64,000 nt of DNA from Diplonema papillatum (lineage: Eukaryota > Euglenozoa > Diplonemea > Diplonemida > Diplonemidae), in NCBI GenBank assembly GCA_030068145.1, contig JAPJBO010000532.1, forward strand, positions 62,001 through 126,000. The letters are read 5' to 3'. The translations under genes and the position numbers were made by a program. Below, one piece after another: positions 13,285-60,890 of this stretch (the first letter of the stretch is position 1; each line of letters starts with the position of its first letter). A model generated the notes under the pieces. It made no database searches. It was not told the origin of the DNA and saw only the letters and a list, made by a program, of their open reading frames with translations.

Positions 13285-13317
13285 GAGACAGCCACGCAAC
13301 ACTCCCTTTGCGCTAGC

Positions 13318-13669
13318 ACAGCCTAGGACATTTAGGAGCATCACAGACCTGCTATTGGCTCGCTCTTCCGCGCGCTATAAGTCGCGCGCAGTCCCCTTAA
13401 GAAGTAGTGCGCGTCTCGGGTAAGCAGCAAGCCGCCGATGCCAAAAGACACCCCCTACAACGACACGCCCACCTATTTAAGGGTCGAGATCTCGTTCGTT
13501 AACGGAATCAACCTGACAAATCACTCCACCAACCAGGAGCGGCCATGCACCACCACACAATTCATCGAGAAAGAGCTCTCAATCTGTCAATCCTTGAGAT
13601 CGTCCTGACCTAGTGAAATTCCCCGTGTTGAGTCAAATTAAGCCGCATACTCCACGCCTGGTGGTGTCA

Positions 13670-43663: not shown

Positions 43664-46600
43664 TCACTCTGTGACGAGAAGACATAAAACCTCATACTCG
43701 TCGTCGGTCATGCGGCGGTCCGTGAGCATCTTCGAGTAGTTGTAGCTGATGAGAATGACGGGGAACGCGAGGACGAAAATGCCGGTGAGCATGGCCACCG
43801 ACGCCACGAGCTTGCCCAGGGGGCTCACGGGCACGTCGTCTCCGTATCCAACGGTCGTCAGCGTGCACACGCACCACCAGAATGCGTGCGGAATCGACTG
43901 GAACTTCGACACGACGCCAGCCTCGGTGACCCAGACCCGGCGAATGTTGTCAAACTCCGACGTGGTCTGCTCAGCCATCCAGCTGTGTTTGCAGGTCAAG
44001 GTTTCTGGCTCTCATAAAATTAGTGTAAACGTAACGTTTATGGTGTGATCCGGTGGCCTTTCTTGGGTGCACAAGGGATGTACTCGGGAAGTTCATGGGA
44101 AGTACTAAAATGCAAAAGATCGCAAGAAATCGCCTTCTTGTTGCGTTTGTGGTATGGTCCTTTGACAGAGTGAGCCGATGCCTCTCATCTCACCTTTAAA
44201 ACACGGCTGAGTCACGCATGCTCTTGACAGACGCTAGCGTCCGACATTTCGCACGCGCGTCGCAGTCGTTGGGTGGTATTGAAGGGGTTTCATCGGATAC
44301 TCGGATGAGCTTCGTTACTTCACCGCCGCAGGTTCCCCCCTGCCCTGGGAGGTCTGCTTGGCTGCCTTCGGTTTGCGTCTCCGTGTTGGTGTTGTTGCTC
44401 TGCTTTTGGACTCCTTCTTCGGCTTGGCACGGTTCCCAACGGCCTGATCTGCTCTTGGCGCCCGTCTTGCGCTCATTCTGCGCTGCTCGTTTCTCCTGCT
44501 TGACTTCGTGTTTCCATCGGGCCTGTTTGCGTTCCCATCCCGACTGGTAATGCCTCTGGGGACGAAAGCTGCCGTTCAGCGTCGCAGCTTCGCGGAGTTC
44601 CTGCTTGCGGTACGGCTCGCACCTTGTCGCCGGCCTTCTTCGCCGTCTGCACTCGTGCGGCTGCATCATACGCGCATCATCATATGCGCGCATCACGACT
44701 TCGAAGGCCTGCTGGTTCGACACCTGCGGCCTCTTATTAAGGCCGGCCATGTTTCCGCCTCCAAGAGACGTCAGGACGTTGACGTGAACCTCGAGTGCCG
44801 GATGCACTGGCTTCTGTACAATCTTTGCCAGGCGTCGCATCGCGCCCTTCATCGCGTATGACTTCGCGGTCACCGAGTTGCGATAATCCGCCGTCGCCCG
44901 TCTCTGAACTTCGTCCATCGCGCGGTTCGACTAAGTCAGCTCTCGGTTCATCCCGCTTCGCCAGTCCTGCCTACCAGACGTGGCCCACTTAGAACCAGGA
45001 TTCTACGTCAGGGTTCAATGAAGTAACCCCGAGCTCACGCCCATTTAAAGTTTGAGAACAGTTCGAGGAAGCGTTTTCCCCAATGCCTCCAATCAATTCG
45101 CTTCACCTGGCGCAACTCCTGTCTTGGTTCTAGGCAGGGGAGTTGTTACACACTCATTAACGGATGCCTGAAGTGTTTTGACTAGAAGCTGCAACAGAGA
45201 CTTACATACATTAGGCTTGAGAACACGATGACGCTGATGAAGAGGAGAAACATCAGTAGGATGAGGGCGTCTACGCTATGCCGGAGAACAGTGATTACCT
45301 GTATGTGTGGTGTTTCGCGTATAATGGCCGCTGTAGGATATCATAGCCAGGGGGAACTGCAAGAACGTGCTAGGACCGGTTACCCACTCGCTGAACGTAC
45401 TGACTTGTCTACACGGTGGCGGTCTGCGAAGGAACTCCACAAAGCGCAGTGGATATGGGGTTGCCGTGTGCAGCACCAAGCACCAACGGGGATAGAGTGC
45501 GAGGACAGCATGTCACTTTCATGGGATAGTGTAGCACTGAAGCCGCACTGATCTGAGTTGTACGGGGCAGGGGAATCTCTTCGATCCTTTTGTTCTTCGC
45601 TTACACCACTGCATGCTGTTTTCTCACTCAGGACTTTGACCTGTTGTGTTTGTGTGTCTTGTCGTGTAGGGGTAGACCCGCATGACCTCATGTCCGTTCA
45701 ACACGTGGTTCGGTAGTTACAGCACTTGGGGATCCCTTCAGTTTTTTTGTCTGGCAGCGTTTGTCGAGCATTTCCTTCCCCAGCTGCGCGCTTGGGGAAG
45801 GAACTGGGTTGGGTACTTATGTAAAACACTTCCTCTTTGATCTAGTAGTGCTTGGGCGGAGTATTGCCTTGTATATAAGGAGGGAATTGGCAGCTAGCTT
45901 CTGGCCTCATCGCACTTGGTCTCGGCTTGGGTCATCGAGTTTATTCTTCATCGGAAAGGGAAGGAAGGAGAGAAGTCTGACAGAAGCCTGATAACTTGCT
46001 TACTAGCAAATGGTAGAGGGGTTGAGGTGGGTCTTCTGAGACTGAATTTTTGTTTTGTTTTGCCGCGACAAAGTGGAGTATTGCTGGATAGTAATCCACT
46101 AATAATCCACTTTGCCGCGACAAAGTGGAGTATTGCTGGATAGTAATCCGCTAATAATCGACTTTGCCGCGACAAAGTGGACTATGAATCCACTTTGTCG
46201 TAATCCGGTTACTATAGAATCCGTTTTTGTCGTTGACCCTTAATTTGGTGCTTGGGCGGAGTATTGCCATGGAGGGGTTAGACACACCATTTTGAACGGT
46301 TTGCTATACTGCCCAACTTTGAACATCCTGACGACTTTCGCCAGGCGGAGAAACAGAAGGTTGACGTTGGAGCTCGCAGACGCACGGTCGAGGTAGAAGG
46401 GGAGGATGGCGGCTACGTCGATCCACAGCATCGGGTCCCTCACCAGCTTGGCCAGGTCGTTTGTGCACACTTTCAGGAGGATTTCAACCGTGAACACCGA
46501 CACGCATATGACCTCGATCTTGAAAAAGATGCCGGTCTGGTCGTGGAACTGGGGCAGGCTTTGCACGATGAAGCTGGTGACGGAGAGCACGATGAGGAAG

Positions 46601-47081
46601 AAGAGGAAGGCGGTGACGGCAATGGACGCCTGCCGATGGCCTTGCGTCGGTTGCTCCGCGCCGGGGTCGAGCACGGACGCGATTTGCTCGCGCTTCGTCC
46701 ACGGTCGATTCCCGCACGAAATTACGGGGTCCGCAGAAGCAGCCGAGCTGCTCCTCGGGCCGGTGCTGGTGTCAGCTCCAGTGTCATTGTCCGGACCCGT
46801 CTGCCCTGCTTGCGTGGTCGCCTCGGCGGCCGTGGCGTTCCGGCTGTACAGGTCGGCGGGGGCCACGCGCCGCAGCGCCTGCAACTCATTGCAGCTCCTG
46901 CCGTCGGGTCGACGGCGTGATGGGGGGCCCCCAGAGGGGCAGTCGACGCCCGCCTTCCTGGACACCTTCGACAGCAGTTCTCTCCGGCGGGAGGGGGTGG
47001 CGGCTGCAGAAGAGACGGAGGCTTCCGATTCTCGGCTGAGAGTCTCGCGCTGGACTCCAGTCTGATCTGAAGCTTCTTCTC
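43664..47081 (-). CDS. Voltage-gated potassium channel (Kv type), three exons seen
   Basis: Exon 1 seen: 47081 (acceptor AGTCGCAG|GAG) to 46288 (donor AAAATG|GTGTGT). It has a charged N-terminus, then S1 (TAFLFFLIVLSVTSFIVQSL), S2 (IFFKIEVICVSVFTVEILLK), S3 (PMLWIDVAAILPFYL) and S4 with a basic residue every third position (LRLAKVVRMFKV). Exon 2: 45298-45206 (acceptor ACATACAG, donor TAT|GTAAGT), 31 codons, S5 (DALILLMFLLFISVIVFSSL), in phase. Exon 3: 43982 (acceptor AACACAG|C) down to 43664, with the pore helix and filter FWWCVCTLTTVGYGD and S6 (LTGIFVLAFPVILISYNYSK). Exons 2 and 3 do not share phase, so a short turret exon is probably missing between them. It may end at the stop or at a GTTTTA donor near 43693. 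Selective plasma-membrane potassium conductance is expected. No T1 domain is seen. Confidence 0.92.
44196..44918 (-). CDS. Unidentified 240-residue ORF inside the Kv intron
   Basis: An intact minus-strand frame starting MDEVQRRATADYRNSVTAKS, followed by ALEVHVNVLTSLGGGNMAGL and a basic, Gln/Glu-rich half (WERKQARWKHEVKQEKRAAQ). It lies between the S5 and pore exons of the channel and is not part of a channel. Composition suits a nucleic-acid-binding mobile-element protein. I recognise no domain. Confidence 0.4.
   Translation of the reverse strand: MDEVQRRATADYRNSVTAKSYAMKGAMRRLAKIVQKPVHPALEVHVNVLTSLGGGNMAGLNKRPQVSNQQAFEVVMRAYDDARMMQPHECRRRRRPATRCEPYRKQELREAATLNGSFRPQRHYQSGWERKQARWKHEVKQEKRAAQNERKTGAKSRSGRWEPCQAEEGVQKQSNNTNTETQTEGSQADLPGQGGTCGGEVTKLIRVSDETPSIPPNDCDARAKCRTLASVKSMRDSAVF
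45299..46020. other. Kv intron interior
   Basis: Contains fragments of repeat D (CTGCAAGAACGTGCTAGGAC at 45357) and pieces shared with the intron at 4500-4640 (CTCACTCAGGACTTTGACCT at 45625). No coding signal. Confidence 0.6.
46055..46205. repeat. Palindrome-containing tandem repeat
   Basis: TTTGCCGCGACAAAGTGG recurs about every 52 bases (about 46058, 46110, 46163). Each unit can form a hairpin between CACTTTG and CAAAGTG arms around CCGCGA. Confidence 0.88.
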
Positions 47082-47100
47082 CTGCGACTAGCCGGGGCTG

Positions 47101-47760
47101 TTTTTCTATGACTTGAAATGAGTCTTTTCACGCAAGCTCGACTCCAGTCTGAACAACAGCTTCGAACTAAGCTTCGTCTGGTTGTAGTCTCGACTTGAGT
47201 CTCGCGCTGGACTCGAGTCTGAACTCAAACGTTTCTCCTGCGACTGGCCGGGGCTGTTGAAATGAGTCTTTTCACGCAAGCTCGACTCCAGTCTGATCAA
47301 CAGCTTCGAACCAAGCTTCGTCTGGTTGTAGTCTCGACTTCAGTCTGCAGTCTGAACCGCAGTTTTTCTGCTGCCGCTAGCCGGGCCGCGTTCGTGAATC
47401 GAGTCCTCTCCAGTCTGAAGTACAGCTTCGAAAAAAGTTTTTTTCGTCTGGTTGTAGCCTCGACTTGAGCCCGGTGCTATACACCGGTCCGACCTAAAGT
47501 TGTCTTCTGCCGCTGGACTGGCTGTAGTCTCGACGTGAATCTTCGCTTCCAGTGTTAAACTGCGGCTTCAAAGCTTCGTCTGCTATTCGCCTGGCTGAAA
47601 CCTGGACGCGAGTCTGGTGCTCAAGGTCCGAAGTACAGCTTTCTTCTGCCACTGGCCTGGCTGTATTCTCGACGTGAGTCTTCGCTTCCAGAGTGAAGTG
47701 CGCTTCGAAGCTTCGTAGCTTTGACTGCAGTCTCGCGATTGAACCCGAGGGTTGTCTTCT
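47101..47760 (-). repeat. Diverged repeats of the Kv exon start
   Basis: Upstream flank of the channel exon. Pieces such as CGCGCTGGACTCGAGTCTGA with TTTCTCCTGCGACTGGCCGG (47205-47260) repeat the exon head and acceptor at 47050-47090. More diverged versions continue to 47760. Confidence 0.75.
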
Positions 47761-51006: not shown

Positions 51007-51250
51007 CAGAGTTAAAGTTCGCTTGAAATTCCGGGGTTTAGGGTCTCCGTGTGACCGTTCATGAATGGGTTCTCTTAGAGCAAGAAAGGGCTATGTGGTT
51101 ACGTGTTGTATATTTAGTGCACGCTTTCGTTATGCGTTATGGCTAGCCATGTCCGGGACTGTTTGTGACCGACACCAAGTACATTCCTTCGTGGAGTGTA
51201 GTCTTGGGCCCCCCACGTTCTACAAGTTGAGCAGGGGTTGCCTTGTAGCC
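51007..51250 (-). repeat. IT element with repeat H
   Basis: TTCAGAGTTAAAGTTCGCTT through GACATGGCTAGCCATAAC (reversed sense) to CACGTTCTACAAGTTGAGC. Almost identical to 41203-41440. A further repeat H piece is at 52205-52320. Confidence 0.82.
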
Positions 51251-51489
51251 CGTACCGGTCTTTTCGGCGCAAGTCTTTTCCAGGTATCTTCGGTCGTGCA
51301 CACAGGCCTTGAAGTTCAGAAATAGCTGGGGGACCCAGAATTTCGAACAGAGCATCGATCGGGTTAAGTGATCTTTGCACCGCCACATTCTCATTCAACC
51401 CGATTCAACTCGATCGATAATGATCAGCAAGCCAATCATCGTCGAATCGAGAGTCGAACGCAGTCTGAGAGATTAGATTTTAAAGCGGT

Positions 51490-51545
51490 TGCTGTGGTTA
51501 GAATGCAGAGCATCTGTAGCGATGGCCTGCATTAGCCACACACGG
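51490..51545. repeat. Single-copy relative of the 114-bp satellite start
   Basis: GGTTAGAATGCAGAGCATCT then GTAGCGATGGCCTGCATTAG. Also present inverted at 61535-61580. The satellite's left junction (8598-8650) has the same order, so the array may have started in such a dispersed repeat. Confidence 0.7.
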
Positions 51546-51589
51546 ATGATGAGTGCAGGCCATCTCGTTGCAGGCCAGAAAGTAGATAC

Positions 51590-51910
51590 CTCAGCTTCTA
51601 TGGCGGTCCTGCCGGAGTCGTTGAGGGCATCTTTGAGCCGGTCGAGTGACTCTTTCTGCAGCTGCCTAAGTTGCACCCGCGTCTCAGAGTGCAGGGCTTG
51701 CATCTTGATGGCGTTGCAGCGGTCTTCGTCATCGCAGTTTAGCTGCTGCCCCTTGCGCTGCGCTTCGGCGTCGAGCATCTCCTTGATGCGGTCGCCGTAC
51801 TCGCGGTGCAGCAGAGCCTTCACCCGCGCCAGCTCCGCCTTCACTTCGTCTTCTGAGAAAGCCGGCAAAGCCAGCGGGAGGTTTTCTGCGAACTCCGGTC
51901 TCACCGACAT
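51590..51910 (-). CDS. Coiled-coil protein, first exon
   Basis: Start MSVRPEFAENLPLALPAFSE, 107 codons, ending at donor GCTGAG|GTATCT. The sequence after residue 20 is a continuous amphipathic helix (VKAELARVKALLHREYGDRI, then HSETRVQLRQLQKESLDRLK) typical of a coiled coil. The ATG lies 10 bases after an AG (CACGCAG), so an acceptor sits close to the start. Family unknown and later exons not found. The next bases to the left contain the satellite-related motif. A mutated fragment of this exon is 9 kb away at 60740-60890. Confidence 0.6.
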
Positions 51911-51919
51911 TGTTTCCTC

Positions 51920-52650
51920 TGCGTGCTCTTTGCTCCTCCCCCCAGGGGGGGAAAATCTTAGTTCGTAGTAGTTAGTAGTAGCAGGGGGGGGGGGTCGTTG
52001 TATAATGGTTTAGCTTGAAGGGTGTTGGAAAGGTTGAAAAAGGTTTTGGGGGTCACCGTCGGTTTGTGTTTTTATTTTTTTCTGTTTATTTCTTTTGGGG
52101 GGTAATTATTTTTTCGGGGGTTCGCGTAACCCTTCTTTTCCGGAAGATAACGTTATCGTTTCTTTTCTCTCTGGCGCTCTTTTTCTCTCTATCTCTCTCT
52201 TTGGCTAGCAAAGCGACTATTGCGACCGACACCACGACCACACCCGTAATGAATGTGATCAAGGGCCCCCCACGTTCTACATGTTGAGCAGGGGTTGCCA
52301 TGTAGCCCGTACCGGTCTAAGCCTTCATTGCAGCTTCCATAAGCACCCCCGTTGGGACGGGTCCGACGGTCCGTTAGTCATCAGCGACATCGGGCGGGAA
52401 AAAGTAAATAAAAAGAAAGGGGAAAAATGGGGGTGTGGGTGGATAAGCTCGTGGTAGGTTGTTCGGAAATAAGTACAACCTCAAACTACGTCTAGCACAG
52501 GGCCAGGCGGCATATACGTGCCTTCATCCTCTCATGTTAGTGTGCGTTCACTCGTACAGACACTTCGAGTTTTTCCCGTTAGTCAGGGTAAACGGGTGCG
52601 GAGTGAAACATAGACCAGCCAGCAATCAAGAATCCGATGAGGCTCAAACG
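51920..52650. other. Gene-free stretch, presumed 3' flank of the retroelement
   Basis: A T-rich block at 52060-52200, repeat H at 52205-52320, then sequence that should be the retroelement's 3' untranslated region. No tandem repeat or ribozyme was recognised in it. Confidence 0.5.
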
Positions 52651-52657
52651 ACGCGGA

Positions 52658-55600
52658 TCAGAATCTCACACCCGCGAGGTGGCAACGTCTCTCATGCGCG
52701 CGGAGTCCCCTCAGACCTTGGAACGTCTGGCCATCCTTCGTGCATTCGACGGAGCAGTGTTGACATCGCAGCACCGGGGAACCTGTTAACTGCTGTTCAA
52801 ACAACTGACCATGCGGTGTCAGACATTGGGAGTCCGGCAAGGGCGGGCAGGGTGGCGAATTACCAAAGGGGCAGAAGGAGTCAGGTGATCCTTCCGACTG
52901 CCGGCTCATCAAATTACCGGCTGAACCTGGGGGTGCAGGCAAGTCGGGTAGCCGATCCTGAGTAGGAAGCACCATGGAGGGTGACGGGGCACGGACAGTC
53001 ATGTCGTGGGCATTCCGGGGGATCCGGACAAAGGCCGCGAGGTAAACGTCACCCCACGGAATGTCGTCGACAGAGGTGACGTGCAGGTCGTCGAAGAGGA
53101 TCCACCCCGTGTCTTGCGCAACGTACGTGACGTAGTGCCCGCTAGCCGTATCCTCCCCCATGTGCACCACGACGGCTGCGAGGCGTAGCAGATGGTCCGG
53201 CGGTCCGAAGAAGGGGGGCAGTTTCACGTCATTCTGGCGCCTGGCACCGTTTCTCGTGTAGATGCCAAACTGCATCAGAACACATTCAGCTGTCAGACGG
53301 AGATCCATACTTTCAACCACCGTACCTACAGCCTTGCAGTCGCATACTCTCTCCGGATTCACAAACCCGTGCACGTGGAGAGAGTCTTCCAGCTTCCTTC
53401 CGCAAGGAATTTGCAAACATTGCATTACCTGACTGCTGGAAGAAGTGCGTCCACATGCACTGCATCGTACTGAGCTGGTCCAGCCGTTCTCCAAGCATGT
53501 TACGAAGAGTTGGTAGCCCGGGCAGGGGGTCCCCGTTTCGTCCGGACCCAGCGTCGCACTAGTCGCGCTGAGTATCGCTACCAGAGCTTCGTGCGCATCG
53601 TGCTGCCGTGCATCGCAGAAGTTTGCGAACATGCTCAGGATGGCTTGGACACCCATTCTCCGACAATCCCGGCTACGCTGGTCACCACTGTCGCGAGAGC
53701 TTGACAGCATGGCAAAGTAAGCCAGGAAGTCCCCGAGAAATCCACGGCAGTTGGGGAGGTCCTGCGCAAGGCTCCAGTACATCTCTCTGATCGGCCCAAC
53801 CCGTAGCAGGAGCTGCAGCACCGCACCAAAGAAGCACGTGTTCCCCAGATTCGGGAGGCCGGCGGGGCCAAACAGCGTCGGATCATGCCTCACGGAAGGC
53901 GGGTGTGTACAAACGACTGATCGGTAGCACGTGGATGGAGGGGCAACTGTTAGAACCGGTTTGTGGACATTCGAGCGGCGTCGCTTTGAAGCCCGTTGTT
54001 CGTCCTCTTCAGCCTTTCGCTTGTGGCCTTTCCGCGTGGACTCACGGGGGGCGGTCGTGTCAGCCTGTCGGGTCGGTGCTTCGGTGGGCGGTGATCGGGG
54101 GGAGTCATCTTCAGCTTCCGGGACAGGTTGGGGGCGGCCATTGTATTTCACGAAGGGTCTTTCAGCCAGAAGGCGCTCGATCGCAAGGTCCATCGCGGCC
54201 GGCTCTGGCAGTGATAGAGTGCGTTCCACCTCGTGAATGAGCCAGAAGAAGTGCCCCCGCACCTTCCCGCAATGCTCGCCAAATTTGGCCTCTGGGTATG
54301 TGTCCAGGAGCCATTTGCGGAATCCACTCTTCAAAACGCTTTTCCGGTAACCACGCCGCATGAGTTTCAAGACCGTGTTGTTCATTTCGGTCTTGAAATC
54401 ATATATGTTGTTGGCGATCCTACCGTTGCGAACGAGGGCCCCAATGAGGATGCTCGAACCGAAGTTGGACGGGGCCGTAGACAGGACTGACGTGTACGCG
54501 AGGGGGCGGTACGGGTAGGCTTTCGCCTTGTCCAAGACCGACAGTCGCATGTATCGCCTTCCAGACGCGCCGGAGACCTCATGTCGTATCCGTATGCCAA
54601 GGAAAGTCGCATCCCCTACGCATGCATTCGTCTGCTTGTACCCCATGCTGTAGATGGACTCGGGAGGGGGTTTCGTCCCGAAACAGAGCAGGTCATCTAT
54701 AAAACGGCGCGTCATGCTGAGGAGTGTAGCCCGCCGGATGTCCCTTTCAGCCAGGAGTCTCATCATGTACCTCTTCTCCTTTGCGTAGCAGAAGAGATTG
54801 GCAATGTCTGGGGAGGCGTTAGCGCCCATCGGGATGCCCAATATTTGCCGCATGAGGATGCCGTTCACCAGTACGTACGTGTTCGCCAGGCAGAAAGCGA
54901 GGAGGGCCTTGAGGTCGTGTGCAGAATATGCTGCCTGCTGCGAGCTCAGATCCGTCACTAGCATGAACGCAAAACAACGTTTCTTCTTCTGTGGCCCATG
55001 TTGGCTCTTCGGTCGTACTAGGACCAGTTCATCAACCCGTACGCCGAGCCGTTCGGCCTCCGCTGCAAAGGCTTCGTCGATGGTACCAGCGATTTCCTCC
55101 AGCAGTTCCTCGAGTCCCAGCTGGTCGTACATGGTCGTGAAATCCCATGTACCCGCGACCAGGCCCGAGAGCTCGTCAACATGCGTCTTCAGAAAGAAGG
55201 CGGTGTCGTCACTGGACTCCGTGATCCAGAAGAATCTAAACCCGGTCGCGTTGAATCGGTCGTTGTCCTCCCTCCGTAGGATCTCCATGACTGATTTCAA
55301 CAGACCCGTTAGATCCAGCTGTGCATCCGTCGTCGATGAAAATGTTGCATCGGGGCGGCGTGTTTCGCGTTCAGGAAAAGTCTCCCCCGGGCCCACAGTG
55401 TTTTTGCGGGAGACCCCGGCGATGTACCGCATGGTTATCACCTCCTTGTGTAGTTTCAAGGTGCCATAAAGGTAGGGGAGGGTGTTCGTGGGGCTCAGCC
55501 CTTTTTGCTCCAGGTACGTCTTGTGATCTGCTACGACTTCTTCCGGTGTCTTCTCGCTCGGGGCGTAGTTCACGCTGTGGTTAACCTTCGTGTACAGATC

Positions 55601-55840
55601 CTGGTTGTAGAATCTTCTACACACGAACCCGAAGTCGTGAGAACTCTTGTCGACCGGGAGAATTACGAGGTCCTTGTGCAGTTCTCGCAGGCGTCGACGC
55701 GATGTGGTTGTCACCTCCGGTTCGGCACCAATACGCGTCACGCCGACGGTCGACATTATCTTCTCCCGCAGCAGTCTGGCGAAACTAGGCGGGGAGTCAT
55801 TAAAGTACCCCTCGACGAACAAAGCCACCGCCCTATCCAC
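52658..55840 (-). CDS. Reverse transcriptase-USP protease-zinc finger polyprotein
   Basis: At least 1,060 residues from 55840 (numbering used here); the frame is open further upstream to about 56100. Reverse transcriptase motif A is TWDFTTMYDQL (Asp233), motif B QILGIPMGANASPDIANLF (332-350), motif C RRFIDDLLCFG (Asp382, Asp383). All catalytic Asp are present. After a basic linker (620 or so; RKGHKRKA and ASKRRRS) comes a USP domain: Cys box GLPNLGNTCFFGAVLQ (Cys669), RQHDAHEALVAIL, matching the QQDAHE box (about 745), a zinc-knuckle-like CSAC ... CDC, and His box VVHMGEDTASGHYVTYV (His902) with ILFDD (Asp918). The C-terminus has C-x2-C-x19-H-x3-C (1026-1053). The first is the copying enzyme, the second would remove or cut ubiquitin. 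Both look intact. The fusion is one uninterrupted frame. Confidence 0.93.
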   Translation of the reverse strand: MDRAVALFVEGYFNDSPPSFARLLREKIMSTVGVTRIGAEPEVTTTSRRRLRELHKDLVILPVDKSSHDFGFVCRRFYNQDLYTKVNHSVNYAPSEKTPEEVVADHKTYLEQKGLSPTNTLPYLYGTLKLHKEVITMRYIAGVSRKNTVGPGETFPERETRRPDATFSSTTDAQLDLTGLLKSVMEILRREDNDRFNATGFRFFWITESSDDTAFFLKTHVDELSGLVAGTWDFTTMYDQLGLEELLEEIAGTIDEAFAAEAERLGVRVDELVLVRPKSQHGPQKKKRCFAFMLVTDLSSQQAAYSAHDLKALLAFCLANTYVLVNGILMRQILGIPMGANASPDIANLFCYAKEKRYMMRLLAERDIRRATLLSMTRRFIDDLLCFGTKPPPESIYSMGYKQTNACVGDATFLGIRIRHEVSGASGRRYMRLSVLDKAKAYPYRPLAYTSVLSTAPSNFGSSILIGALVRNGRIANNIYDFKTEMNNTVLKLMRRGYRKSVLKSGFRKWLLDTYPEAKFGEHCGKVRGHFFWLIHEVERTLSLPEPAAMDLAIERLLAERPFVKYNGRPQPVPEAEDDSPRSPPTEAPTRQADTTAPRESTRKGHKRKAEEDEQRASKRRRSNVHKPVLTVAPPSTCYRSVVCTHPPSVRHDPTLFGPAGLPNLGNTCFFGAVLQLLLRVGPIREMYWSLAQDLPNCRGFLGDFLAYFAMLSSSRDSGDQRSRDCRRMGVQAILSMFANFCDARQHDAHEALVAILSATSATLGPDETGTPCPGYQLFVTCLENGWTSSVRCSACGRTSSSSQVMQCLQIPCGRKLEDSLHVHGFVNPERVCDCKAVGTVVESMDLRLTAECVLMQFGIYTRNGARRQNDVKLPPFFGPPDHLLRLAAVVVHMGEDTASGHYVTYVAQDTGWILFDDLHVTSVDDIPWGDVYLAAFVRIPRNAHDMTVRAPSPSMVLPTQDRLPDLPAPPGSAGNLMSRQSEGSPDSFCPFGNSPPCPPLPDSQCLTPHGQLFEQQLTGSPVLRCQHCSVECTKDGQTFQGLRGLRAHERRCHLAGVRF

Positions 55841-55905
55841 TTCAGTACAAATAGCTTCGTCGCCGCCATCCGGGCGGAACTTGCGACCTTTGTCGAAGAG
55901 CGTAA

Positions 55906-56857
55906 CTAGTTCGCTGCAGGTGTCGAGGAGGTGTGCTTGCCCACACGCATGGCCTTGAATGTGGTATCCTTGCAGCAGATACTTTTGACACGGGCAGTCT
56001 TCGGGCGGAGGGGCCGGCTCCGGGGTCGTCTGTCTTGAAACCTCCGTGAAGTTGGAAAGGAGGACCCCGAGAGGGGGTTGAGTGACGTAGAGACTCTCGT
56101 GTTGATGAATTCCGTGGGGTCGGCGAGGAGAGCACGGAGTTGGGCATCATGGCGGAAGATAGCGGCAAGTTTGCGCTCGTCCAGCAGCTTGCTGACCTGT
56201 TGGATGCAGAACCACGGGGTTCGTGCCGCACTTTTCTTCTTTTTCACGAGGTGGTTTTTCTCACCAAGCCGTGCAGTGAGCAGCTCGTCCAGGATCCCCA
56301 CCTTCGGATGCTGCAGGTGTTCGATCATGAACCGCCGAACCCACGTCCGAACCCTGTACACCCGGCTCTTCATCCACGGGTTCACGTCATACTCCCGCAG
56401 TGCGTCCTCCTCCAGTCCGAAGAGGTGCTGCAACTGCCTACGGATGCCGAAGAATCTACCCCGTCCCTGGTTGATCCGTATCTCTTCGCCATCCACGTGA
56501 ACCCACGGCTCCCCACGCTCGCGTGAAGCTCCTTGGGCGTCCCGTTCGTTGCCCGGTGCCTTTGTGAACGATGGTGCAGTGCGGGGCTTTTTCCTCCGTC
56601 TGTTCAAATCGCTGGCTGTCCTCACCGTGTTGAACATCGGCTGCAGCATCGCGATGAACGCCATCTCTATCGGCTCCGACACCCTGTCGAACGAACTCCC
56701 GTCGGAGTAAAACGCACCAGGGATGTCGTAGAGCACGAAAGCGTACGGCGGGGAAGGGAGGTTCTGTAAGTGACGCTTGAACTGGTCCTGTTTGCTGTTC
56801 CTGCCAGACCAGTGTTTGGCGACCCTTTCCTGCATCGTCTTGCCTGTCTTGCCGTGA
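55906..56857 (-). CDS. GIY-YIG endonuclease part of the retroelement, 5'-truncated
   Basis: Frame with MQERVAKHWSGRNSKQDQFK preceded in frame by HGKTGKT; a stop lies just upstream inside the foldback junction. YAFVLYDIPGAFYSDGSSFD and EMAFIAMLQPMFN complete the GIY-YIG core. A long region follows (FFGIRRQLQHLFGLEEDALR, then DPTEFINTR) equivalent to the linker before the reverse transcriptase in such elements. The frame then ends at 55906, while the next frame is already open and reads CPCQKYLLQGYHIQGHACGQ, a CxC ... GH block that clearly belongs to the same protein. The frame change thus lies in 55910-56105. Confidence 0.85.
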
Positions 56858-56861
56858 GGGG

Positions 56862-57592
56862 GGAGACGCTACCTGTCACTCTCTAAGGTGGTCACCACGG
56901 TGGGCGGTCAGAAAAAAAAAAATTTCTTTTTGCCCCAAATACCCCAAATACCACACTTTGGAAAACTTTTGTGGGCCCACTTTTGGCAGGGAATTTTGAC
57001 CATTTCACCTTAGAAAATTTGACCACCACCCAGCCTCCAAGGCAACTGCACTGTAGAGGGGGGGGGGATTGCAAGAACGTGCTTGGAATGGATATGTGCT
57101 CAACACCGCACTGGTCCCGTCTGCGCCGTGTTTCGGTCCTTTAAGCCACGGACACATAAGGCGGACCATCATCAGCGTGGAACCTGAGTGTCTGCAGACA
57201 GGACTGCGGTGTGAGTCTGGTTTGTCAGGCGGCTGATCGTAGCTCGTCACAGCCAGGACCACCCGTGCTACTAGAGCACAGGCGAATCCGTCACGGGGAG
57301 AGGGGGGGGGGGGGGGGGGGTCTGGTTTATCCGGCCATCCGGCCAAAGTGGCTGATCCTTAACAAGAGCGCTGCCCCCCCCCCCCCCCCCCCCCCCCTTC
57401 CACAGTGCAGTTGCCTTGGAGGCTGGGTGGTCGAATTCTCTAAGGTGAAATGGTCAAAATTCCCTGGCAAAAGTGGGCCCACAAAAAATTTTCAAAGTGT
57501 GGTTTTTGGGGTATTTGGGCCAAAAAAAAAATTTTTTTTTCTGACCACCCACCGTGGTGACCACCTTAGAGAGTGACAGGTAGCGTCCCCCC
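56862..57592. mobile_element. Foldback element, about 200-bp inverted arms
   Basis: Left arm 56862-57067 and right arm 57393-57592 are inverted copies (GACGCTACCTGTCACTCTCT on the left, reversed on the right). Both carry an A/T tract (AAAAAAATTTCTTTTTG type). The 325-bp interior holds a repeat D copy between a G tract (57301-57322) and a C tract (57375-57398). The left outer end is where the retroelement nuclease is cut off. Confidence 0.9.
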
Positions 57593-60715: not shown

Positions 60716-60739
60716 TTCTCGAGGGGGGGGCAGAATCTC

Positions 60740-60890
60740 CCTGAGTTGCACCCGCGTCTCAGAGTGCATAGGGCCTGCATCTTGATGGCGTTGCAGCGGT
60801 CTTCGTCTTCGCAGTTCAGCTGCTAGCGCTGCGCTTCGGCGTCGAGCATCTCCTTGATGCGGTCGCCGTACTCACGGTGCAACGCCCAGT
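60740..60890 (-). pseudogene. Fragment of the coiled-coil exon, 9 kb from the source
   Basis: GAGTTGCACCCGCGTCTCAG through TTGATGGCGTTGCAGCGGTC to GATGCGGTCGCCGTACTC match 51670-51815 in order, with small indels (an inserted ATAG, a lost CCCCTTG) that break the frame. Both ends are truncated. Confidence 0.9.

Follow-up and report, generated by a model that had tools for sequence, protein, structure and literature searches.

A 64,000-nucleotide stretch of the genome of the marine flagellate Diplonema papillatum (contig JAPJBO010000532.1, positions 62,001 to 126,000; hereafter the window) contains, on its minus strand, what is almost certainly a permuted Penelope-like retrotransposon, in which a GIY-YIG endonuclease (EN), a CxC motif and a telomerase-like reverse transcriptase (RT) are followed by a C-terminal ubiquitin-specific protease (USP). 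Our overall explanation, which we consider probable, is that this is a permuted Penelope-like element with a working-looking USP that protects the element by removing ubiquitin. The computational evidence comprises the domains themselves, the spread of the element in many copies, ends resembling those left by target-primed reverse transcription, selection acting on the USP, and relatives that carry Josephin or OTU domains. A preliminary description, made from the window sequence, placed RT and USP in one uninterrupted frame, and this frame is indeed present on the minus strand at 52658-56146 (1,162 codons). The 1,060 residues and the catalytic Cys669 given in that description agree with a start point 102 residues downstream of the beginning of the open frame; by full-frame numbering the cysteine is Cys771.

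Every USP landmark that had been proposed can be located, namely the Cys box with Cys771, a QHDAHE box, the CxxC and CxC finger pairs, His1004, and Asp1019/1020. Moreover, Pfam assigns UCH (PF00443) to query residues 762-1027 with an E value of 7e-21, the query numbering starting one codon into the 52658-56146 frame, and the predicted fold is that of peptidase C19/PF00443. The closest known USPs given are USP46 and USP12, with approximately 22% identity, from which the element enzyme differs in being fused to RT and GIY-YIG domains. Its catalytic motifs align with those of six host USPs, and USP and RT motifs are kept in some frame of all 36 loci examined. The USP part is very likely to be a catalytically active deubiquitinase.

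The RT motifs DFTTMY, GIPMG and FIDD are likewise visible in the window protein. An AlphaFold2 model extending from the CxC motif to the thumb (predicted local distance difference test, pLDDT, 86.5; predicted template modelling score, pTM, 0.83) can be aligned with telomerases over most of its length, and telomerases occupy rows 1-17 of the VIA fold search and rows 1-14 of the Foldseek search (E 1.1e-11). An insertion-in-fingers domain in the RT is a feature of permuted Penelope-like elements. In the closest protein, P0001 (99% identity, 1,499 aa), GIY-YIG lies at residues 86-129, CxC at 388-390, RT extends to approximately residue 1003, USP spans 1100-1365, and a C2HC pattern is found at 1465; Cys-388 and Cys-390, between EN and RT, are invariant in a seven-row alignment. 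The GIY-YIG domain of P0001 scores exactly at the Pfam cut-off (E 1.3e-4, 22.6 bits); scores are above the cut-off in P0003 (23.0 bits), P0008 and P0009, and below it in P0002 and P0005, and 23 of 36 loci have the motif [LI]YIGKT in one frame or another. The proposed N-terminal GIY-YIG nuclease is thus borne out in P0001, where GIY-YIG, RT and USP form one protein, but not in the RT-USP frame of the window copy. In that copy the nuclease survives only in its later part (from ..GKT..), within frame 55906-56868. Two causes account for this: 5' truncation of the copy at approximately 56854, inside the GIY-YIG motif, and, by our reading, a C-run near 56075 that differs in length by one base and so puts this second frame out of register with the RT-USP frame. 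The N-terminal nuclease, the CxC motif and the telomerase-like fold, together with the tandem pieces and insertion at C-runs described below, support the permuted Penelope-like assignment. The 2 kb located 5' of copy L005 hold only frames shorter than 200 aa, none of them convincing by inspection as an upstream ORF1 (open reading frame 1). TERT is a single-copy cellular gene without an endonuclease, and a telomerase TERT gene was excluded as a candidate by the multi-copy state and the presence of GIY-YIG.

Searching the 271-Mb D. papillatum genome with the window protein gives 42 match rows, genomic copy counts here being lower bounds. Twenty-one of these rows (L002-L022) have 99-100% identity over residues 22-1161; the open frame is exactly 1,585 aa in 14 rows, and the part that follows its first Met is as long as P0001, 1,499 aa. 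A second subfamily comprises five rows with 84% identity and an open frame of 1,590 aa. Using P0003 as query reveals a third, with 31 rows, 27 of them at 98-100% and 13 with a frame of 1,562 aa. The search with P0011, a transcript with the EukProt prefix Rhum that we take to be from Rhynchopus humris, gives 38 rows, all at 33-34% identity. Many other copies with RT and USP in one frame are therefore present in the genome, as the window-protein and P0003 searches show. With three or more subfamilies, copies numbering in the tens and the fusion also seen in a transcript of another organism, it is barely conceivable that the USP merely rides along as a piece of host gene transduced on one occasion, or was joined on by the assembly, even though retroelements do transduce neighbouring sequence. 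The USP travels with the element, its dN/dS (the ratio of nonsynonymous to synonymous substitution rates) is far below 1, and it is closer to the USP of P0011 (34-44 bits) than to the six host-type USPs compared (of 37; at most 31 bits). These other copies and the selection refute both a neighbouring host gene and an assembly fusion as the source of the USP. In a genome search with PF00443, 149 of 935 candidates were scored; in a hand count made on length and profile range alone, 112 of these agree with the element and 37 do not, and many of the 112 have short open frames. Mobile-element genes probably account for some three quarters of the USP-domain matches that were scored in the D. papillatum genome. 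P0001 and the similarly full-length P0003 are both annotated 'putative ubiquitin carboxyl-terminal hydrolase 16'.

When calculated separately over RT and USP by the Nei-Gojobori (NG86) method, dN/dS is less than 1 for both parts in every usable pair, L005-L019 and L028-L029 having too few differences to use. For L005-L028 the values are 0.058 (RT), 0.154 (EN), 0.212 (USP; bootstrap 0.15-0.31), 0.407 (linker) and 0.360 (C-tail). RT and USP values are 0.171 and 0.196 for L005-L027, 0.104 and 0.178 for L027-L028, 0.119 and 0.264 for L005-L024, and 0.250 and 0.191 for L005-L026. Against L043, from the third subfamily and with dS near saturation, they are 0.062 and 0.080 for RT, and 0.126 and 0.158 for USP. 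The USP/RT ratios for the first four pairs are 3.7, 1.1, 1.7 and 2.2, with a value of about 2 against the third subfamily and 0.8 for L005-L026. Purifying selection thus acts on the USP in all usable pairs, usually less strongly than on RT. Such relaxation might be expected of a pseudo-enzyme kept as a ubiquitin-binding module only, but we regard this alternative as most improbable given that the catalytic motifs, aligned with those of host USPs, persist at all loci examined. The start codon of P0001 is supported by a drop in dN/dS from 1.00 before it to 0.08 in the next 80 codons.

The 3' end, which was read by one string, is readable at 22 of 30 loci, and in all 22 the sequence CAACG, followed by no more than one further base, gives way to a C-run of at least five; the other eight are truncated, near a contig end, or without the exact string. 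In the window copy this boundary lies at 51995 (CAACGA, then the C-run), and the distance from the stop codon to the boundary is approximately 676 nt in most copies. The 5' ends vary over kilobases among copies, which is the pattern left by target-primed reverse transcription. Ten of 14 breaks, read by eye, have a C- or G-run of at least six within 35 nt upstream, the exceptions being L006, L007, L010 and L024; our own arithmetic, based on the 73 runs of this kind that the 64-kb window holds, gives an expectation of about 5%. The other 16 loci, including the reference L005, show no 5' break in their stretch. Tandem pieces are found at five places (L019, L026, L014/L015, L028 and L025) and not within the stretch of the other loci: a 3'-end piece of approximately 113 nt lies just upstream of L019 and of L026, L014 and L015 are arranged head to tail, and pieces of at least 803 nt and of 127 nt lie downstream of L028 and L025, respectively. 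No Rfam family, the hammerhead ribozyme included, was matched with an E value of 1 or less in L005, L031, L028 or L043. At its 5' break the window copy abuts a foldback repeat (56860-57592) with arms of approximately 205 nt and C/G-rich stretches, and copies L012 and L019 likewise have a foldback-like end sequence immediately after their 3' C-run. This repeat may be a preferred target.

Relatives carrying a USP are P0007 (43% identity over RT), P0011 (34%) and P0029, whereas P0013-P0026, from metagenomic contigs, carry a Josephin-type domain, and P0027 has an OTU domain (E 5.6e-8). Twelve of the 14 Josephin-type matches (set A2, leaving out P0020 and P0022) were scanned, with Pfam Josephin matching four (best E 1.1e-10), the Cys box present in 11 (not P0019) and the His in all 12. 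In the seven rows for which it was displayed, the third catalytic position is E or D; in ataxin-3 this residue is N. Three predicted deubiquitinase types, USP, Josephin and OTU, are found at the same C-terminal place. In an RT tree of 21 rows, all from the present searches and without P0019-P0022 and the partial or chimeric D. papillatum models P0002, P0004-P0006, P0008, P0009 and P0012, one clade (98/99) unites the D. papillatum rows with P0007, P0010 and P0011, and another (100/99) comprises ten Josephin rows. P0029 falls outside the former, with long branches. An approximately unbiased (AU) test rejects a single USP clade (with P0010) when all rows are kept (p 0.004), does not reject it without P0030 (p 0.17), and rejects it marginally without P0028, P0030 and P0031 (p 0.04). 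The P0029 USP scores 25 bits to host USP L040 and 12-13 bits to element USPs (P0003 only); that of P0007 matches only the P0011 USP (18-19 bits). An independent second USP capture in P0029 is only suggested by these data because the AU outcome depends on the rows kept and long branches are involved. One pattern scan (A3) of IMG/VR viral contigs gave 20 pattern matches and no relatives. As additional observations, P0027 has a DnaJ domain near its C-terminus (E 5e-19), and P0007 has five C2HC zinc finger patterns between RT and USP, the D. papillatum element having one, after the USP.

Several results weigh against our interpretation. The Pfam RVT_1 profile gives no match up to E 1 on the window protein, so that the RT call rests on motifs and fold. 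Among the scores seen, RVT_1 passes its cut-off in P0028 only (E 1.2e-7), with weak matches in P0011 (E 0.0012), P0010 (E 0.005), P0030 (E 0.0063), P0027 (E 0.15) and seven of the 12 set A2 proteins (best E 0.0011). The protein database searches, which scored only the 8,000 candidates with most words in common, gave 14 homologues with UCH listed for four (P0001, P0003, P0007 and P0011). P0002 retains only the USP start, and six D. papillatum models (P0004-P0006, P0008, P0009 and P0012) match 31-72% of the query and have no UCH. The C-terminal zinc finger of the element is still present in P0004 and P0012, so that at least these two look like partial or chimeric gene models. No recognised deubiquitinase is present in P0028, P0030 and P0031, nor is one found in the model of P0010, which lies inside the USP clade; a deubiquitinase is not universal in these elements. 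In addition, a USP that often evolves faster than RT would fit host partners as its substrate better than the element itself, and purifying selection shows that the USP is used, not for what. Separately, we observed that the models 'Ribosomal RNA-processing protein 12' and 'Magnesium/proton exchanger' (P0005 and P0012) include element pieces and are probably annotation fusions.

Host cells restrict retroelements partly through ubiquitin. In the mechanism that we propose, the GIY-YIG nuclease would nick C-rich DNA, RT would prime on the nick, and the tethered deubiquitinase would strip ubiquitin from the element's RNA-protein complex, and perhaps from adjoining proteins, sparing the complex from degradation during copying. 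Self-protection is our tentative choice for the main role of the USP because the three unrelated folds have only the chemistry of ubiquitin removal in common. Its chief rival, which we consider rather unlikely, is that its substrates are chromatin or repair proteins at the target (e.g. ubiquitinated H2A, H2B or PCNA), so that the deubiquitinase would open the site or skew the way in which the nick is repaired. NLS (nuclear localization signal)-like basic stretches in the linker and the C-terminal zinc finger pattern are consistent with such a role, as is the faster evolution of the USP in most pairs, which might be expected of a host-facing part, although this is not seen in every pair (L005-L027, 1.1; L005-L026, 0.8). 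USP1 with FANCD2-ubiquitin and the SAGA Ubp8 module are among the solved structures listed near the USP, a weak indication given that the 50 listed rows span 3.3 Z units. The chromatin substrate is, however, hypothetical, and histones are not typical substrates of Josephin and OTU enzymes. The preliminary description had also raised processing of the polyprotein, which would make the USP comparable to retroviral proteases, and the position of the protease within a long single-frame protein does recall the processing proteases of other elements. USP, Josephin and OTU enzymes recognise folded ubiquitin, however, and we know of no processing in single-ORF Penelope elements. Because these enzymes need ubiquitin-like substrates, and Pfam scans of element proteins reveal no ubiquitin-like domain (an RGG motif is also absent from P0001, P0003, P0007 and P0011), polyprotein cleavage is very unlikely, and the least likely of the functions first suggested.

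Permuted Penelope-like elements have an insertion bias to microsatellites and no hammerhead ribozyme. Naiad and Chlamys, the permuted elements with N-terminal EN reportedly described by Craig et al. in 2021, are said to share with the present element the N-terminal GIY-YIG, CxC, telomerase-like RT, tandem pieces, simple-repeat insertion and lack of a hammerhead, but the present element has a C-terminal deubiquitinase, and we know of none in the Naiad/Chlamys group. Ulp1-like proteases are SUMO-type enzymes. As given in the accessible text of PMC4640811, the non-LTR (long terminal repeat) retrotransposons NeSL and Utopia carry such a cysteine protease of the ubiquitin/SUMO sphere; it is, however, N-terminal and not of the USP type, and these elements have a restriction-like endonuclease and are not Penelope-like. 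Helentrons have a deubiquitinase-like domain too, but they are rolling-circle DNA transposons with an OTU-like protease rather than USP or Josephin (accessible text of PMC6431247). Canonical Penelope/Poseidon elements (PAc, accessible text of PMC11167929) likewise have RT and GIY-YIG in a single ORF and a tandem pLTR (pseudo-LTR), but their nuclease is C-terminal, a hammerhead is present, and no protease is named. The word 'josephin' is absent from the main text of PMC6431247, PMC3846280 and PMC5718144; the accessible parts of PMC9033089, PMC12910113 and PMC10941475 contain only general descriptions, citations and class names; and the Diplonema genome paper (PMC10161547) uses neither 'Penelope' nor 'ubiquitin' in its main text. 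The open PMC literature, as far as its text is accessible and with Repbase and the main permuted-Penelope paper outside it, yielded no mention of a Penelope-like element with a deubiquitinase and no description of a retroelement with its own USP-type deubiquitinase. Protease-bearing mobile elements were thus already known, and what is new, as far as we have found, is a USP-type deubiquitinase on a Penelope-like element.

Table 1. Predicted features of the element copy in the window (window coordinates).
Feature	Position	Strand	Basis
5'-truncated copy of deubiquitinase-carrying Penelope-like element	51995..56854	-	blastn to copy L005, 99.5% identity
C-run directly past element 3' end	51984..51994	-	sequence
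3' untranslated region (UTR)	51995..52657	-	stop codon to common 3' boundary
RT + USP open frame, 1,162 aa	52658..56146	-	ORF list, Pfam
Second frame: later GIY-YIG part and EN-RT linker	55906..56868	-	compared with relative P0001
CxC motif, between EN and RT	55988..55996	-	motif scan; both Cys invariant in 7-row alignment
Telomerase-like reverse transcriptase, CxC to thumb	54149..55996	-	AlphaFold2 model, fold searches
RT motif A Asp335 (DFTTMY)	55142..55144	-	motif scan
RT motif C Asp484-Asp485 (FIDD)	54692..54697	-	motif scan
Variable linker, basic NLS-like stretches	53870..54148	-	dN/dS 0.41 (L005-L028); basic motifs at residues 709, 721
Ubiquitin-specific protease domain	53009..53869	-	
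USP catalytic Cys771	53834..53836	-	motif scan
USP catalytic His1004	53135..53137	-	motif scan
USP Asp1019-Asp1020, third catalytic residue	53087..53092	-	motif scan; Asp1020 invariant vs 6 host USPs
C2HC-type zinc finger pattern (CxxC...H...C), C-terminal	52682..52765	-	pattern search

Beyond the features in Table 1, a 99-nt stretch of the 3' UTR (52220-52318) is repeated with 81% identity at 51163-51261, approximately 1 kb beyond and outside the element, and this second occurrence is possibly a short non-autonomous element with a common tail. A 178-aa frame at 51473-52009 (minus strand) has an ATG at approximately 51910, some 74 nt past the element's C-run, and part of it is repeated at 60737-60881. 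The window also contains 18S and 28S rRNA fragments at 13316-13644 and 44944-45142 (minus strand) and, at 46243-47127 (minus strand), a frame in which Pfam recognises an ion transport domain (E 3.7e-15). About 3,600 scattered 28S pieces are given for the Diplonema genome in the accessible text of PMC10161547.

We regard it as an evenly balanced possibility that protist Penelope-like elements have repeatedly captured USP, Josephin and OTU domains at the same C-terminal site, with ubiquitin being a general barrier to, or handle on, target-primed retrotransposition that is removed in cis. The presence of three unrelated classes of deubiquitinase at one position within a single group of elements would argue strongly, by comparison, that target-primed retrotransposition benefits from the removal of ubiquitin, and this idea can be put to the test with a single domain, a single Cys change and a single insertion assay.

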